DNA of 64,000 nt from Loktanella sp. Alg231-35 (lineage in GTDB: Bacteria; Pseudomonadota; Alphaproteobacteria; Rhodobacterales; Rhodobacteraceae): assembly GCF_900143545.1 (NCBI RefSeq), contig NZ_FREV01000006.1:186001-250000 (forward strand), in the 5' to 3' direction. Position 1 is the stretch's first letter. Each line of letters begins with the position of its first letter. The notes under the pieces are model-generated. The model was not told the DNA's origin and did not search any database. It worked only from the letters and a program-made list of their open reading frames with translations. The translations under genes and the position numbers were made by a program. Below are positions 7,949 to 58,768 of this stretch, piece by piece.

Positions 7949-10900
7949 ATGCCAAAGCGTACCGACATCCAGTCGATCATGATCATCGGCGCCGGCCCCA
8001 TTATTATCGGCCAAGCGTGTGAGTTCGACTACTCCGGCGCACAGGCCTGCAAGGCGCTGCGCGAAGAAGGCTACCGGGTCATTCTGGTCAATTCCAACCC
8101 CGCCACAATCATGACCGATCCGGGTCTTGCCGATGCAACCTATATCGAACCGATCACGCCGGAAGTTGTCGCCAAAATTATTGAAAAAGAACGCCCCGAC
8201 GCGCTCTTGCCGACGATGGGCGGGCAGACAGGCCTAAACACCTCGCTGGCGCTGGCCGACATGGGTGTACTGGAAAAATTCGGCGTTGAAATGATTGGGG
8301 CAAAGCGCGAAGCCATCGAAATGGCCGAAGACCGCAAGCTGTTCCGTGAAGCCATGGACCGTTTAGGCATCGAGAACCCCAAGGCAACAATCGTGACCGC
8401 CCCCGAAGTGGATGGCAAACAAGACCTCGACGCTGGCGTCAAAATAGCACTTGAGGCATTGGAAGACATCGGCCTGCCCGCCATCATCCGCCCCGCCTTT
8501 ACCCTTGGTGGCACAGGCGGCGGCGTGGCGTATAACCGTGAAGAATACGAACATTTTTGCCGCACGGGCATGGATGCCTCTCCTGTCGGCCAAATCCTCG
8601 TGGACCAGTCGCTTTTGGGCTGGAAAGAGTTCGAGATGGAAGTCGTGCGCGACAAGGCGGACAACGCCATCATCGTCTGCGCCATCGAAAACGTGGACCC
8701 GATGGGCGTGCACACTGGCGATTCAATCACCGTAGCCCCTGCCCTGACGCTGACGGACAAAGAATATCAGATCATGCGCACGCACTCCATCAACGTGCTG
8801 CGCGAAATCGGCGTCGAAACCGGTGGATCCAACGTGCAGTGGGCCGTGAACCCCGCTGACGGGCGCATGGTCGTGATTGAGATGAACCCCCGCGTTTCGC
8901 GCTCGTCCGCGCTGGCGTCCAAGGCCACAGGTTTCCCGATTGCAAAAATCGCTGCGAAACTGGCGGTGGGCTATACGCTGGATGAATTGGACAACGACAT
9001 CACGGGTGTGACCCCTGCGTCCTTCGAGCCGACAATCGATTACGTCGTCACCAAAATCCCACGCTTTGCATTTGAAAAATTCGCAGGCTCTGAACCTTAC
9101 CTGACGACGGCGATGAAATCTGTGGGCGAGGCGATGGCCATTGGCCGCACGTTCCACGAGAGCATGCAAAAGGCTCTCGCTTCTATGGAAACGGGCCTCA
9201 CCGGTTTCGATGACATCGACATCCCCGGCGCACCTGATGCCGCTGCGATCACCAAAGCACTGGCCAAACAGACCCCCGACCGTATCCGGGTCATCGCGCA
9301 AGCCATGCGGCACGGCTTGTCCGACGACGATATCTTCGCCGTCACCAAGTTCGACCCGTGGTTCCTTGCCCGCATTCGCGAAATCATCGAGGCCGAGGCC
9401 GACATCATCAAAGACGGCCTGCCCGTGACCGAGGAAGGGCTGCGCGCGATCAAAATGCTCGGCTTTACCGACGCACGCCTTGCCAAGCTGACAGGCCGCA
9501 CCGAGGACCAGGTGCGCCGCGCCCGCCACAACCTTGGCGTCAATGCCGTCTTCAAGCGGATCGACACCTGCGCTGCGGAATTTGAGGCGCAAACACCCTA
9601 TATGTATTCCACCTACGAAAGCCCTGTGATGGGCGAGGCGGAATGCGAAGCCCGGCCATCAGACCGCAAAAAAGTCGTCATCCTTGGCGGTGGCCCTAAC
9701 CGCATCGGCCAAGGGATCGAGTTCGATTACTGCTGCTGCCACGCCTGTTTCGCCCTGACCGATCAGGGTTATGAAACCATCATGATCAACTGCAACCCCG
9801 AGACTGTCAGCACCGATTATGACACTTCCGACAGGCTCTATTTCGAACCGCTAACCTTTGAGCACGTGATGGAAATCTTGCGCGTCGAGCAGGATAATGG
9901 CACCCTGCACGGCGTCATCGTGCAATTCGGTGGACAGACCCCGCTCAAGCTCGCCAATGCGCTGCATGACGCTGGCATCCCGATCCTTGGCACTACACCT
10001 GACAGCATTGACCTTGCCGAAGATCGTGAGCGTTTCCAACAGCTTGTCCAGAAACTCGACCTCAAGCAACCGCATAACGGCATTGCCGCCACCGACGAAG
10101 AGGCGCTCAACATTGCCGAAGGCATCGGCTTTCCACTCGTCATCCGCCCATCCTTCGTCTTGGGCGGGCGCGCTATGGAAATCGTGCGCGATATGGACCA
10201 GCTGCGCCGCTACATCTCTGACGCCGTGGTGGTGTCGGGCGACAGCCCCGTCCTGCTTGACAGCTACCTTTCCGGTGCTGTTGAGGTTGACGTCGATTGT
10301 CTTTCAGACGGCAACGCCACCCATGTCGCGGGCATCATGCAGCACATTGAAGAGGCGGGCGTTCATTCCGGCGACAGCGCGTGTTCCCTACCCCCTTATT
10401 CGCTGTCAGACGCGATGATCGCGGAAATCCGCAGCCAGACGGAAAAACTGGCCAAGGCGCTTAACGTTGTGGGCCTGATGAACATCCAGTTCGCAGTCAA
10501 AGACGAAACAGTTTACCTGATCGAGGTGAACCCCCGCGCATCCCGCACCGTGCCCTTCGTGGCCAAAGCGACCGACTCTGCCATCGCCTCTATCGCCGCG
10601 CGGTTGATGGCGGGCGAACCACTGTCGAATTTCCCCCTGCGCACGTCTTATCCGGACTCTGAGAACCCCATGGACGTCCTGCCTATGGGCGACGCCTTCA
10701 CCCTCGCCGATCCCAACACACCATGGTTTTCGGTGAAAGAGGCCGTCCTGCCCTTCGCCCGCTTCCCCGGCGTCGATACGATCCTTGGCCCTGAAATGCG
10801 GTCAACCGGAGAGGTCATGGGCTGGGACCGGTCCTTCCCCCGCGCGTTCCTCAAGGCGCAAATGGGCGCAGGCACCGAACTGCCAGAAGCAGGCACCGTC

Positions 10901-54483: not shown

Positions 54484-54573
54484 GGAGACGTGGCCGAGTG
54501 GTCGAAGGCGCTCCCCTGCTAAGGGAGTAGGCCCGGAAGGGTCTCGAGGGTTCGAATCCCTTCGTCTCCGCCA
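54484..54573 (+). tRNA. tRNA-Ser(GCT)
   Basis: 90 bases including encoded CCA. Acceptor stem GGAGACG/CGTCTCC pairs fully; anticodon stem CTCCC/GGGAG with loop CTGCTAA gives anticodon GCT at 54518-54520 (codons AGC/AGU). A long variable arm typical of tRNA-Ser and T-loop TTCGAAT are present. Confidence 0.97.
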
Positions 54574-54960: not shown

Positions 54961-56493
54961 CTAGCAGTTCACGCCGCCAAATTGCACACCACTCAGGTCA
55001 GCCATTTCTTTTTTCCATGTGGTGATGTCGCGGAGGGCGAAGTCTGACAGGCAGTTGTGGCCACATGCCCGCGCCAAGACCTGCATCAGTTCAACCGATG
55101 CGCCGAAATAGCGGGCAAGTTTTTGGGCCCCTAACTGAACGTCCAACCGCGCGCGCAGTTCCGGCTTTTGGGTTGCGACGCCAACAGGGCAGTTGTTGGA
55201 GTTACACATGCGCGCCGCAATACATCCGACTGCTTGCATGGCGGAATTTGACACCGCAATGGCATCCGCACCAAGTGCCATCGCTTTGGCAAAATCCTCG
55301 GCGACGCGCAGGCCGCCTGTAATGACCAAAGTCACGTCGCGCCCAATTTTTGCATCCAGATGCGCGCGCGCACGGGCCAAGGCGGGGATTGTGGGCACAG
55401 AGATATGATCGCGGAAGATCAAAGGTGCCGCTCCCGTGCCGCCGCCGCGGCCATCCAGAATGATGTAGTCGGCGCTGGCCTCAAGCGCGAAGTCGATGTC
55501 GTCTTCGATGTGGTTTGCCGACAGTTTGAACCCGATGGGAATGCCGCCAGATCGTTCTCGGACCTCATCAGCAATGCGTTTGAAATCGGCTGGTGTTTCA
55601 AGGTCTGGGAATGTTGACGGGGAAATCGCGGATTGACCAGGTTCCAAGCCACGTACCTTGGCAATCTTGCCCTGAACCTTGTCGCCCGGAAGATGCCCGC
55701 CCGTGCCCGTTTTGGCCCCTTGGCCACCTTTGAAGTGAAAGGCTTGGACGCGGGCGACCAGATCAAGGTCCCACCCGAAACGCGCTGATGCCAATTCGTA
55801 GAAATAGCGCGAATTTTCTGCCTGTTCCTCGGGCAACATGCCGCCCTCGCCAGAACAAATCCCAGTGCCTGCCATCTGCGCACCACGTGAGAGCGCGGTC
55901 TTCGCCTCTTCGGACAATGCACCATAGCTCATGTCTGACACAAACAGCGGGATATCCAGTTGCAAGGGCTTGGCGGCACGCGGGCCGATGGTGACAGATG
56001 TCGCGACGGGCATGTCATCAAGTAAAGGCTTGCGCGCCATTTGCGCCGGCAAAATTTGAATGTCATCCCAGTGCGGCAAGTCTTTGCGCGGCACACCCAT
56101 CGCCCCCATTTCGCCGTGGTGGCTCAGTTTGGACAGCCCGTCTTTGGCCAGCGCATGAATGCGGGCGACCGTTGGTTCTTCTGGCGTTGGGGTCGCGGTT
56201 GGAACGTCAGACTTTGGTTTCGGAGATGGATCCCCCGCCTTCAGGTCACCGAGTGTCGCGTGCGTGCCATCACAGAATGGTCCGTTCGCTGTTGCCTTAC
56301 ATTGACACAACGCCGCGCTTCCTGTGCTGTCTGCGGTAAACTTTTGCGGCGTCACCTCCGTGCCTGCATGGGACCCGTCACAGAACGGCTGGCTCTTGGA
56401 CAACCCGCACCGACACCAAAAGTAGTCCTTGCCCTTTTCCAGATCGACGGATGTGGGGCTTTTGGCGGCGATGATCGGTACGGATCGGGTCAT
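54961..56493 (-). CDS. double CDGSH iron-sulfur domain fused to glutamate-synthase-type FMN domain
   Basis: 510 residues. N-terminus: two CDGSH [2Fe-2S] motifs, WCRCGLSKSQPFCDGSH (about residues 27-43) and LCQCKATANGPFCDGTH (about 62-78), then a Pro/Thr-rich linker, then an FMN-dependent glutamate synthase central/FMN domain (FVSDMSYGALS; GEGGMLPEEQ; GGQGAKTGTGGHLPG) with the 3Fe-4S cysteines (MCNSNNCPVGVA). There is no glutamine amidotransferase domain, so it is not a complete glutamate synthase. Inference: an FMN oxidoreductase with built-in electron-transfer clusters. Last gene of a five-gene operon. Confidence 0.88.
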   Translation of the reverse strand: MTRSVPIIAAKSPTSVDLEKGKDYFWCRCGLSKSQPFCDGSHAGTEVTPQKFTADSTGSAALCQCKATANGPFCDGTHATLGDLKAGDPSPKPKSDVPTATPTPEEPTVARIHALAKDGLSKLSHHGEMGAMGVPRKDLPHWDDIQILPAQMARKPLLDDMPVATSVTIGPRAAKPLQLDIPLFVSDMSYGALSEEAKTALSRGAQMAGTGICSGEGGMLPEEQAENSRYFYELASARFGWDLDLVARVQAFHFKGGQGAKTGTGGHLPGDKVQGKIAKVRGLEPGQSAISPSTFPDLETPADFKRIADEVRERSGGIPIGFKLSANHIEDDIDFALEASADYIILDGRGGGTGAAPLIFRDHISVPTIPALARARAHLDAKIGRDVTLVITGGLRVAEDFAKAMALGADAIAVSNSAMQAVGCIAARMCNSNNCPVGVATQKPELRARLDVQLGAQKLARYFGASVELMQVLARACGHNCLSDFALRDITTWKKEMADLSGVQFGGVNC

Positions 56494-56542
56494 GTTATTG
56501 TCCTTATAAATTGGCTTGGTCCAATGCTAAGTGCTGTCGTGG

Positions 56543-57013
56543 TCAAGAGCGCTTAGGTTCCTCTAGCCGGAAAAACAGGTCTCGAAATCTGGGCATAAGC
56601 AGCAGCCCAAAGAAGATCACATCTAGAACAGTCTGGACGACCGGGGCAGTATACGGGTTTCCGCCGCCGTTGAATTGTTCAAAGGCGATAGGTTCACCGA
56701 TCAGAATAAGGTTCGTCAGGGCGCCAATGTGATCAACGATGGATAGGGTGAAGTAGACAATCGTGAGCGTCCAAACCGTGAATCCCCGCCATTTCCAAAC
56801 TGCGATGGCGAGTGGGATGGCAAAGATTGCGGTCACGACGTCAAGGATTGCGGGGTACATCCAACCAGCCGGATCAATGCCGTTTGCGACACTTGTAATA
56901 AGCGGAATCGCGATAAGGCGGATCAATTGGGCGAGGATCCAGACAATGAGACCAAAAAGGAAGATCTTACCGGAACGGCCAAGGTTGGCGGTGTTTTGCG
57001 ATGCTTCTTGCAT
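56543..57013 (-). CDS. four-helix membrane protein (DUF6326-like)
   Basis: 156 residues with four hydrophobic segments (about residues 16-38, 52-72, 77-100, 125-142). It resembles a small DUF6326-type membrane family, but the family assignment is tentative. Function unknown. It lies between the luciferase-domain and CDGSH-glutamate-synthase genes with gaps of 48-49 bases on both sides, so it is probably in one transcript with them and may link exported and cytosolic members of the operon. Confidence 0.7.
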   Translation of the reverse strand: MQEASQNTANLGRSGKIFLFGLIVWILAQLIRLIAIPLITSVANGIDPAGWMYPAILDVVTAIFAIPLAIAVWKWRGFTVWTLTIVYFTLSIVDHIGALTNLILIGEPIAFEQFNGGGNPYTAPVVQTVLDVIFFGLLLMPRFRDLFFRLEEPKRS

Positions 57014-57061
57014 ATCGTGCCTCGTTTTTTGGTGAATAGATTTCGAACCATGCAGGGCAAA

Positions 57062-57595
57062 TTACGGCACGGGTCGTCCGGTCACGTAGGTGTAGGACGC
57101 GCGCACCAATTGCATCACAACGTCCAATTCTTCTTGCGTCGTGGGCGTATAGATCATCACAAAACCGCCCCAACCGGGCCTTTGGTCGGCCCATGGGTGC
57201 GGCGTAGCCCAACCGGCGTTCACTGCAGCGCGGGCCAATTCCGGTTCCAGAGTTGCGTGCAAACTGCCGTCGGGGTGAACATGTGCAAATTCCCGACCGC
57301 CAACGATGGCATCGGGATTGGCAAGACTGATATCCCTGTCCAATTGGAAGCCTACCGCCCCCGGCAAGGAAACGCGCGTTGCGCCGAGAGTGACGCCAGG
57401 CAGCTTTTCAACATGCTCCAACATCATGGCGGTGAGCTCTGGAACGGCCTCAACATCCAACTGGACATGTGGGACGCTGTTGGTGGTTTCAGGGCGCGGG
57501 CCATCGCGGGCGGGGAGGGGCGCGTCTTGGGCCCAGCCAGACGCGACCCCTGTGAAAAGGGCCGCTACGGCCAAAAGGGTGGTTCGTTTTAACAT
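57062..57595 (-). CDS. exported luciferase-domain (DUF5519-like) protein
   Basis: 177 residues from ATG 57595 (AAGGGAA site). Signal peptide LKRTTLLAVAALFTGVASGWA, cleavage before QDAPLP. The rest matches the small luciferase-domain/DUF5519 type: REFAHVHPDGSLHATLEP, WATPHPWADQRPG, and the VMIYTPTTQEELDVVMQLV end. The name reflects sequence similarity, not light emission. Function unknown; a periplasmic ligand-binding or enzymatic role is inferred. The longer frame upstream lies in the preceding gene and is not used. Confidence 0.72.
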   Translation of the reverse strand: MLKRTTLLAVAALFTGVASGWAQDAPLPARDGPRPETTNSVPHVQLDVEAVPELTAMMLEHVEKLPGVTLGATRVSLPGAVGFQLDRDISLANPDAIVGGREFAHVHPDGSLHATLEPELARAAVNAGWATPHPWADQRPGWGGFVMIYTPTTQEELDVVMQLVRASYTYVTGRPVP

Positions 57596-57638
57596 TTTGG
57601 TTTCCCTTGAGTTTTGGCCGCAGCGGTTTTTGGGGCGG

Positions 57639-58133
57639 TTAGTTGGCGTGGTAAGCTTGGCTGACGGCGAAACTGTCTTCGAACCAGTTCCAAAGCACAA
57701 CTTGTCCGTCACGCACTTTGGCACGCAGGGCAAAAGTGAAGTCACCGATTTCTTGGCCCGACTTTGTCGTGATCCCGTTCATGTCACCAAAGATCGCCAC
57801 CGTGTCGCCAAAGGCGAGGACATCGGTGTTTTCCCATTTGGTGGTTTGAAAGTTCTCGCTGAACACACCTAGGAAGGTAAAAATCTCATCCTTGCCATTC
57901 CAAGGTCCTATCCATGGAAGGGTCGGATCGCCTGCATTCAGCCAAACCATGTCGTCTGCCATCAGATCGGCCATCGCACCCATGTCACCGCTTCCCATCG
58001 CGCCCATAAGGGCCATGACGGTGTCGAGACTTGCCTGACTTTGGTCATCGTTTGACTGCGCCGTTGCGGCTGAGCCGAGTGTCACGCCTGTTGCGGCCGC
58101 GGCGGAGGCTTTCATTGCTTGTCGTCTGTTCAT
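57639..58133 (-). CDS. Tat-exported NTF2/SnoaL-like protein
   Basis: 164 residues. A twin-arginine signal (MNRRQAMKASAAAATGVTLG, cleavage about residue 26) suggests export in folded form. The mature part is an NTF2-like fold (DTVMALMGAMGSGDMGAMADLM; WLNAGDPTLPWIGPWNGKDEI; RAKVRDGQVVLWNWFED), a cone-shaped pocket used by SnoaL cyclases, ketosteroid isomerases and ligand binders. Why a cofactor-free NTF2 domain would use Tat is odd and may mean it assembles or binds a ligand before export. Second gene of the LysR-divergent operon. Confidence 0.78.
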   Translation of the reverse strand: MNRRQAMKASAAAATGVTLGSAATAQSNDDQSQASLDTVMALMGAMGSGDMGAMADLMADDMVWLNAGDPTLPWIGPWNGKDEIFTFLGVFSENFQTTKWENTDVLAFGDTVAIFGDMNGITTKSGQEIGDFTFALRAKVRDGQVVLWNWFEDSFAVSQAYHAN

Positions 58134-58160
58134 TTTCAGAACTCCTGTTGGGGTGGGTTT

Positions 58161-58640
58161 TTAGCGGCCGGTCAGTTGCTGCAATGCGCCTGCCCAGTCT
58201 TCGACGTGGTAGGAGCGCACGATTTTGCCGTCTGCAATTTCGTGAATGTCGATCGTCATGATATCAAAGCTGCGCCCTTCACCATCTACACCGAAAAACG
58301 GCGCAACGGGTGTGCCAGTGGCGCGGCTGCGAACAGTGACGAAATCACCGCTGTCGTGCATGTCCTGGACGGTCCAGTTCAGATCAGGCAAAAGCTGTGC
58401 AAAGCCGCCAACCTGACCCAAGAACGCGTCGCGGTTTTTGTTTTCACCGGAATAGTCGCCAACGCTTGCCCATGTGTCTGCGGTCGCTTCCACAAATGCG
58501 GCCGTGTGTGTTTCCGAACCTGGGTTGCTGAGAAGGTCGTAGAAGGCCTGAACGGTTTCGGCGTTGTCGGCGATCGCTGAGGACGCGAATGAGGAGGCAG
58601 CGATTGTTACAGCCGCTAGGACTGCGTGTGGTTTTTTCAT
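58161..58640 (-). CDS. exported SnoaL-like ester cyclase family protein
   Basis: 159 residues from ATG 58640. Sec signal peptide MKKPHAVLAAVTIAASSFA with cleavage near SSAIA. Mature part is a SnoaL/NTF2 fold: ETVQAFYDLLSNPGSETHT, QVGGFAQLLPDLNWTVQDMH (the L-P-D-x-x-W/x motif common in SnoaL), and EIADGKIVRSYHVEDW. First gene of the operon and divergent from LysR by 128 bases, so it is the most likely directly controlled target. Substrate unknown. Confidence 0.82.
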   Translation of the reverse strand: MKKPHAVLAAVTIAASSFASSAIADNAETVQAFYDLLSNPGSETHTAAFVEATADTWASVGDYSGENKNRDAFLGQVGGFAQLLPDLNWTVQDMHDSGDFVTVRSRATGTPVAPFFGVDGEGRSFDIMTIDIHEIADGKIVRSYHVEDWAGALQQLTGR

Positions 58641-58714
58641 GTTAAGACTTCCTTTTGAACGATGTGGGCGCCGCTGCGTTTGCGGCGCTCTGTTCAAAGA
58701 GGATGGACATATTT

Positions 58715-58725
58715 TGATTAAATCA
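58715..58725. promoter_or_regulatory. putative LysR operator
   Basis: TGATTAAATCA, a perfect 11-base interrupted palindrome in the 128-base divergent region, 43 bases from the LysR start. LysR boxes follow T-N11-A with dyad symmetry; the position and AT-richness fit, but only a binding assay could confirm it. Confidence 0.4.
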
Positions 58726-58768
58726 TAAGGTAGGGTTATCAAATTTAACTGTTCGGATTTTTTGCATA

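Follow-up and report, generated by a model that had tools for sequence, protein, structure and literature searches.

The 64,000-nucleotide stretch of Loktanella sp. Alg231-35 analysed here (positions 186,001 to 250,000 of contig NZ_FREV01000006.1; hereafter the window) carries a five-gene operon, its genes called A to E in order of transcription, that diverges from a gene for a LysR-type regulator, P0006. We tentatively read this unit as a LysR-controlled, horizontally moving stress cassette against quinone-, hydroquinone- or catechol-like aromatics, with a periplasmic arm and a cytosolic Fe-S/flavin mononucleotide (FMN) reductase, a possibility to which we give rather less than even weight. 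It draws on the gene content, the signal-like N-termini of A, B and C, a conserved regulatory element, a gene pool shared among related cassettes, and three sets of genomic associations: of E with such cassettes, of E with glutathionyl-hydroquinone reductase (GHR), and of C relatives with LigB, DoxX and glutathione transferase (GST) genes.

In the mechanism that we infer, the regulator would sense a quinone-, hydroquinone- or catechol-like aromatic, or a product thereof, and, as a presumed activator, would turn on the divergent operon via a conserved element with a T-N11-A box. In the periplasm, A, B and C would convert the compound or sequester it, and D would serve them in the membrane. E, in which an FMN domain is combined with two CDGSH motifs and a cysteine motif of the [3Fe-4S] type, would reduce in the cytosol what enters the cell, provided that its cofactor sites are occupied and that electrons flow in this direction.

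By the coordinates of their open reading frames (ORFs), the five genes are separated by 27, 43, 48 and 49 bp, and A by 128 bp from the divergent LysR gene (Table 1). A preliminary description of this DNA had proposed five same-strand genes with gaps of 27-49 bp and a single divergent LysR gene; the open frames agree with it, and Pfam matches for A, B, C, E and the regulator uphold the domains it named. The operon end that it placed at 58742 corresponds to a TTG start and needs correction: A more probably starts with the ATG at 58640, from which a signal-like peptide is read and with which the homologues agree. Because the same gene order recurs in three further loci (L061, L062 and L063), we regard the grouping of A to E as more than chance.

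Table 1 Features of the operon, its divergent promoter and the adjoining tRNA gene (window coordinates)
Feature	Position	Strand	Basis or remark
Whole operon, A-B-C-D-E in transcription order	54961-58640	-	ORFs
A, Sec-exported SnoaL-like/ester-cyclase-like protein, 159 aa	58161..58640	-	Pfam SnoaL 1.4e-19
B, Tat-type exported NTF2/SnoaL_2 protein, 164 aa, core gene of the cassette family	57639..58133	-	SnoaL_2 1.9e-14
C, Sec-exported luciferase-domain protein (PF17648), 177 aa	57062..57595	-	Pfam 8.6e-26
D, small membrane protein, 156 aa	56543..57013	-	No Pfam family matched
E, double CDGSH plus glutamate-synthase FMN domain, 510 aa, type-5 CISD	54961..56493	-	Pfam zf-CDGSH, Glu_synthase
LysR-type regulator P0006, 294 aa	58769..59653	+	Pfam HTH_1, LysR_substrate
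Conserved 32-bp promoter element, CCGAACAG...CTTAT	58725..58756	-	12 bp from LysR start codon
T-N11-A box (TAA-N7-TTA), TAACCCTACCTTA, inside the element	58726..58738	-	Predicted LysR site
tRNA-Ser (GCT)	54484..54573	+	ARAGORN; just past operon end, apparently a variable site in genus

The LysR proteins of the three other five-gene loci are 85-92% identical to P0006, whose best NCBIfam LysR models (YafC, AaeR and PRK14997) all scored far below cut-off. The divergent promoter contains a conserved element with a T-N11-A box that is the probable LysR site. The pattern CCGAACARTNAA-N{8,20}-YTTAT matched once in the 3.9-Mb genome, exactly at the divergent promoter, and zero times when read backwards. 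For a wider comparison, 26 LysR-A intergenic regions were used: those of 23 among the 80 loci described below, in which a P0006-class LysR gene and A were detected 40-400 bp from each other, and those of the window, L046 and L058; the last two have identical element sequences, and loci of the other LysR class lie outside this set. Of the 26 regions, 25 had a CGAAC block at a distance of 12-15 bp from the LysR start, L066 being the exception, and a T-N11-A box occupied a fixed place in 18 of these 25, with TAA-N7-TTA in seven. Element columns reached 1.32 bits compared to 0.18 bits in the control, a comparison that is indicative only, as the control columns (region ends) are mutually unaligned. 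A looser element pattern was present at the same place in gammaproteobacterial loci (L104, L116, L130-L134 and L136) and also away from such promoters (L074 at 725, L079 at 13839 and L104 at 3517). The conserved element supports the prediction of a dedicated divergent promoter, and with it the earlier proposal of one LysR-linked unit.

A scan of 84,980 species' genomes with an alignment of B returned 192 relatives, the best 80 of which were analysed; all were selected for carrying B, and the reference copies behind the gene labels were checked with Pfam. In these 80 loci we found a divergent upstream LysR gene within 6 kb in 66, A in 50 and C in 25. DUF2218 was present at 31 loci, an NmrA-type or short-chain dehydrogenase/reductase (SDR) gene at 27 and an MsrQ-like gene at 26; double NTF2 proteins were of two kinds, encoded at 14 and 13 loci. 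D was seen at six and the FMN part of E at five, not counting a CDGSH-only match (29%) in L127. L152 and L093 are one stretch, with the same gene order and a contig of 846,230 bp in both cases, and L079 and L093 share one contig. Where at least 4 kb was available on both sides (62 of the 80, the others being cut by contig ends), divergent LysR was present in 53 and A in 36. The complete order LysR/A-B-C-D-E was seen in three of the 80 besides the window: in a Flavimaricola metagenome-assembled genome (MAG; L061), in Rhodobacteraceae UBA2553 (L062) and in an uncultured alphaproteobacterium (L063). Genome G091 was discarded as a further case, its locus L032 being contained letter for letter in L061. 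The expectation that the gene set would recur as a fixed block in unrelated genomes was therefore not borne out: among the loci searched, the order occurs only in the window and in these three other genomes, all alphaproteobacterial, and most E copies in the family sample have other contexts.

LysR-A-B-C without D and E was found on Roseobacter litoralis plasmid pRLO149_83, on a Dinoroseobacter plasmid and in L059 and L060, and on Loktanella and Sulfitobacter plasmids B accompanies SDR, DUF2218 and cytochrome- or ferric-reductase-like genes. The range of the family extends over Rhodobacterales, a few Rhizobiales (Roseibium, Ahrensia and Pseudohoeflea) and gammaproteobacterial MAGs; within the genus, B is present in 7 of 40 genomes. 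The cassette family has a common core (LysR, B and often A), with the remaining genes swapped from a shared pool; it is conserved and, apparently, modular and mobile. The individual parts come from known families, whereas this exact set of five is uncommon.

E combines two zf-CDGSH stretches with a Glu_synthase domain (4.3e-89) and contains CxC/CDGSH at 27/38, CxC/CDGTH at 63/74 and Cys-x5-Cys-x4-Cys at 424. This cysteine-rich stretch, whose cysteines we take to be [3Fe-4S] ligands, aligns with that of glutamate synthase structures. A full glutamate synthase was rejected, as E aligns only to residues ~856-1199 of the 1472-1520-residue chains (about a quarter). With its tandem CDGSH motifs and C-terminal glutamate synthase FMN domain, E belongs to the type-5 CISD class as defined in PMC3174974 and is no different from other members in domain make-up. 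The portions of PMC3174974 and PMC5859297 available to us make no mention of an operon of type-5 CISD with exported NTF2-type proteins.

To compare genomic contexts of E, we sampled 295 genomes of the family and obtained 49 matches past an E-value of 1e-180, 25 of them type-5 and 24 with the FMN part only. Up to ~9 kb on each side was read for 23 type-5 loci (the window and G091 being left out) and for 17 FMN-only control loci, all of which carry a Rieske N-terminus. Contig ends truncate several E loci (L036, L142, L143 and L147: 4.3-8.1 kb), where the lack of a match therefore does not count as a full miss. Within 6 kb, a GHR-type (Xi-class) GST was encoded at 14 of the 23 type-5 loci versus 1 of the 17 Rieske-FMN loci (Fisher p 6e-4), a LysR protein at 11/23 versus 1/17 (p 5e-3) and any cassette-pool gene at 9/23 versus 0/17 (p 5e-3); these p-values are optimistic because the loci share ancestry. 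The 14 loci with a GHR-type GST divide into eight with a YqjG-type gene and six with a second GST type alone. Among the six E loci of the genus, four have GHR and three a pool gene. The operon in L141 consists of a divergent LysR gene, two exported-looking proteins, a YqjG-type GHR that is 61% identical to E. coli YqjG, E, a hemerythrin and a second, Xi-type GST. The best PDB matches of the YqjG-type neighbour were 4fqu, a putative glutathione transferase that we assume to be PcpF (6.8e-133), and YqjG (8.2e-130).

Two uncharacterised exported-looking proteins, c19 (~405-430 aa) and c12 (~360 aa, with a Big_5 domain), link the B-cassette pool and the GHR-E pool, because their relatives occur near E, including in the GHR-E operon of L141, and also in the B cassettes L093, L129 and L138. 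The cassette in L093, with B and E, further encodes an intradiol-type dioxygenase with a twin-arginine start (9576-10346; Dioxygenase_C 8.5e-12).

The E tree places the four five-gene copies in a single clade (0.90), which in turn lies within a clade (0.94) that also takes in three copies from GHR contexts. Other branches hold L135, the first branch, where E accompanies LysR-A-B-C; L152, the L093 locus, where it accompanies B; and L037/L038/L156 (0.99), in which either an MsrQ-like gene or double NTF2 proteins accompany LysR and B is not beside E. We conclude that E joined LysR/NTF2- or MsrQ-like-type cassettes about four separate times, some of the supports being modest, and this repeated recruitment speaks for the earlier idea that exported NTF2-type proteins are coupled to a cytosolic redox enzyme. 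The E gene of genome G032 (L038, 8494-10033) is split in two frames and may be inactive or reflect a sequencing error. In its FMN domain, the window's E shares 96-97% identity with the five-gene copies from other genera and 85-93% with E of its own genus; this greater likeness across genera than within the genus fits transfer of the cassette as a unit. E could instead be an accidental passenger that came with a neighbouring insertion into a working unit of LysR-A-B-C, with or without D, as the existence of LysR-A-B-C without D and E (pRLO149_83, L059 and L060) and the confinement of the five-gene arrangement to a single E clade might suggest. We consider this quite improbable, given that related cassettes on other branches include E too, at different positions (L135, L093/L152, L037, L038 and L156), and that the order is kept in all four five-gene loci.

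Relatives of C outside the cassette point to aromatics as well. On plasmids, distant C relatives lie in an operon of varying membership with DoxX, an extradiol dioxygenase, the luciferase-domain protein, an NAD(P)H-binding protein and GST. Of 51 records of C relatives in all, eleven distant loci were opened, and the 10 with annotation contained an extradiol (LigB-type) dioxygenase in seven, DoxX in seven, an NAD(P)H-binding/SDR protein in seven and GST in four. The L198 dioxygenase is a LigB protein 34% identical to E. coli YgiD. The PF17648 proteins of this DoxX-LigB-NmrA-GST plasmid operon belong to the same Pfam family as C, and three of them are 36-41% identical to it; these three lack a signal-like N-terminus, whereas C and its cassette relatives have one.

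These neighbours recall the YhaJ system of E. coli. As described in PMC5031710, YhaJ is a LysR regulator with a T-N11-A box that controls yqjF, ygiD, yhaK, yhhW and other genes, and its regulon is induced by hydroquinone and catechol. On the E. coli gene map, yqjF, which encodes a DoxX protein, adjoins yqjG, so that the genes of the system include a DoxX protein, a LigB-type dioxygenase and a neighbouring GHR. Relatives of C and E adjoin similar genes, namely LigB, DoxX_2 and GHR, at the identities to YgiD and YqjG given above, while the plasmid-operon DoxX_2 protein is not demonstrably a YqjF orthologue. Because relatives of both C and E accompany homologues or family members of YhaJ-system genes, we infer a response to a quinol- or quinone-like aromatic, and the association of relatives with GHR-type GST, LigB, GST and DoxX lends weight to the previous suggestion of a reactive or xenobiotic compound as target. 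The window shares with the YhaJ system a LysR-type regulator and, in its divergent promoter, a predicted T-N11-A box. In contrast to the YhaJ regulon, the window operon has none of those enzymes, and instead unites exported NTF2, SnoaL and luciferase-domain proteins with a CDGSH-FMN protein in one divergent operon. P0006 was ruled out as a YhaJ orthologue (25% identity). By analogy, the window system may thus work like the YhaJ response rather than be that response.

Several observations weigh against a role directed at quinol-like aromatics. GHR, dioxygenase, DoxX and GST genes are all missing from the window operon itself, and the link runs through relatives. P0006 is as distant from the LysR of the GHR-E operon as from YhaJ (25% identity each), and nine of the 11 LysR proteins near E are only 23-27% identical to it. 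The distant C loci appear to be one operon by descent, so that 7/10 does not represent seven independent events. Of the nine pool cases near E, six depend on the exported proteins c12 and c19, matched at 32-36% identity, and a seventh on just one NTF2x2 match, and A/B/MsrQ-like-type genes occur in only two of these nine loci, L152 and L156. Neither GHR nor a pool gene accompanies 7 of the 23 type-5 E copies. MsrQ-like, DUF2218 and siderophore-interacting pool genes, finally, suit oxidant or metal stress equally. Our confidence stays below even because the operon is without diagnostic quinol enzymes and pool genes also suit oxidant stress, and it is lowered further because most pool genes near E are c12/c19. 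The interpretation given in the preliminary description is, as a whole, partly supported.

The MsrQ-like or ferric-reductase-like genes in 26 of the 80 B-centred loci, the reference copy of which scored 71.8 bits with NCBIfam MsrQ (below the cut-off of 130) and 1.6e-15 with Pfam Ferric_reduct, might also signal an envelope response to reactive chlorine or general oxidants. Scavenging or repair would then fall to the exported proteins and electron transport to an MsrQ-like haem protein or D, with E repairing or reducing inside. In survey PMC9751292, chlorite dismutase is likewise accompanied by SDR and LysR genes; a term search of its main text found no occurrence of CDGSH, NTF2, luciferase, cyclase or YedZ. 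We regard such an oxidant response as unlikely: MsrP and MsrQ queries kept no match at any of the 46 loci of the E and control sets (no search was made for catalase or chlorite dismutase), and GHR-type GST, LigB and the intradiol dioxygenase point to aromatics instead.

The exported proteins themselves allow yet another reading. A is placed in the SnoaL family by a Pfam score above cut-off and has profile matches to the polyketide cyclase structures IdmH, TsrD and AclR. It differs from these SnoaL-type cyclases, with which it shares the family, in that A alone bears a signal-like N-terminus; IdmH and TsrD align with its C-terminal half and lack the His of its IDIH stretch. The Tat models of B fell just under cut-off (TAT_signal, 18.8 bits versus a cut-off of 22.7), and the twin arginine is kept in all six aligned sequences. 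The matches of A and B to SnoaL-type polyketide cyclases, together with the patchy, partly plasmid-borne distribution, would suit a cassette directed at one particular secondary metabolite (polyketide, lactone or algal phenolic), which it would break down or modify for nutrition or in antibiotic defence, with A and B as real cyclase- or isomerase-like enzymes. This, too, we hold to be unlikely, as the four classified operon proteins include no CoA ligase or ring-to-central-metabolism enzyme (D, which is unclassified, could be a transporter) and, for one pathway, the make-up of the cassettes is highly variable. No polyketide biosynthetic cluster was recognised by eye among window ORFs of at least 250 aa, no whole-window family search having been made.

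In an alignment of C (24 references found; L060, L062 and L071 left out), His43, Glu102, His105, His107, His113 and His133 are invariant, and this His/Glu set may bind metal. A signal-like N-terminus is present in 22 of the 23 aligned cassette-type copies, the exception, L104, being cut at the match. A structure model of C (pLDDT 89.2) gave nothing in Foldseek at an E-value of 0.001 or better; its best VIA-align matches, 2a1v (DUF419; Z 9.5, 111 aligned, 3.0 A) and then 3h9x (Z 8.8), suggest that the modelled fold is DUF419-like, with no function implied. DUF419 is presumably MmcQ/YjbR.

D has three hydropathy peaks, and a low-confidence model (pLDDT 60.5, five sequences) shows four long helical stretches; its best Foldseek match had an E-value of 0.25, and nothing was concluded on the fold. 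The gene was found in 2 of 198 genomes of the family (its own and G091), in its own genome plus one very weak match across 289 genomes of the class, and in one plasmid record, L047. All homologues found (L047, L061-L063, L069 with a broken frame, L072 and L074) are located inside such cassettes or at most a few kb away, the B-centred ones having been detected by looking at those loci. D is a rare cassette-associated family.

Returning to the quinone- and catechol-directed cassette, a modular two-compartment detoxification can be envisaged, although we consider it rather improbable. Exported C and NTF2-type enzymes, working in the periplasm, would be coupled via D, or via an MsrQ-like haem protein, to E as a cytosolic CDGSH-FMN reductase with several clusters; C would be the exported version of a normally unexported aromatic-associated protein, and D a new membrane family.

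The surroundings of the operon and the paralogues of E were also inspected. A tRNA-Ser(GCT) gene lies 0.4 kb past the end of the operon, beside an imuA-imuB-dnaE2-like block; its neighbours differ among the relatives read. This tRNA gene adjoins imuA in 5 of 8 genus relatives examined, and in the tRNA stretches of all eight (12.6-14 kb each) no match to E, B, the LysR gene or the three genes beyond LysR was found. The corresponding site in G028 has transposase-like genes, by reading of ORFs. An anti-phage defence reading was dropped because the six proteins (LysR and A to E) gave 0 matches to PADLOC-DB models at an E-value of 0.01. A Rieske-FMN paralogue in the same genome (C6:156000-170000; L039, also L041) is 70% identical to the FMN domain of E and lies between ClpB-like and MsrP/MsrQ-like genes, these names coming from reading the sequence. 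A query for a Rieske-associated thiamine pyrophosphate (TPP) enzyme matched within 6 kb in 11 of the 17 Rieske-FMN loci (L163-L179), two of the matches being weak (25% and 39% identity), and a haloarchaeal plasmid relative (L056) has a TPP-binding protein nearby. The Rieske-FMN paralogue and the TPP enzyme possibly represent a conserved TPP/FMN/Fe-S enzyme pair.

In the literature searched, parts of which were accessible, we found no assigned bacterial role for type-5 CISD fusions (PMC3174974, PMC5859297) or PF17648 proteins, and no account of this cassette combination or of this context for either protein. Genome context ties both to one theme, quinol/quinone handling, and the two-compartment detoxification, if true, would give type-5 CISD and bacterial PF17648 proteins a physiological role. 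Since a single small operon here unites them under a predicted regulator site, their function can be tested directly, and in a marine, non-pathogenic bacterium, and the interchangeable gene pool shows how Rhodobacterales may assemble such responses.

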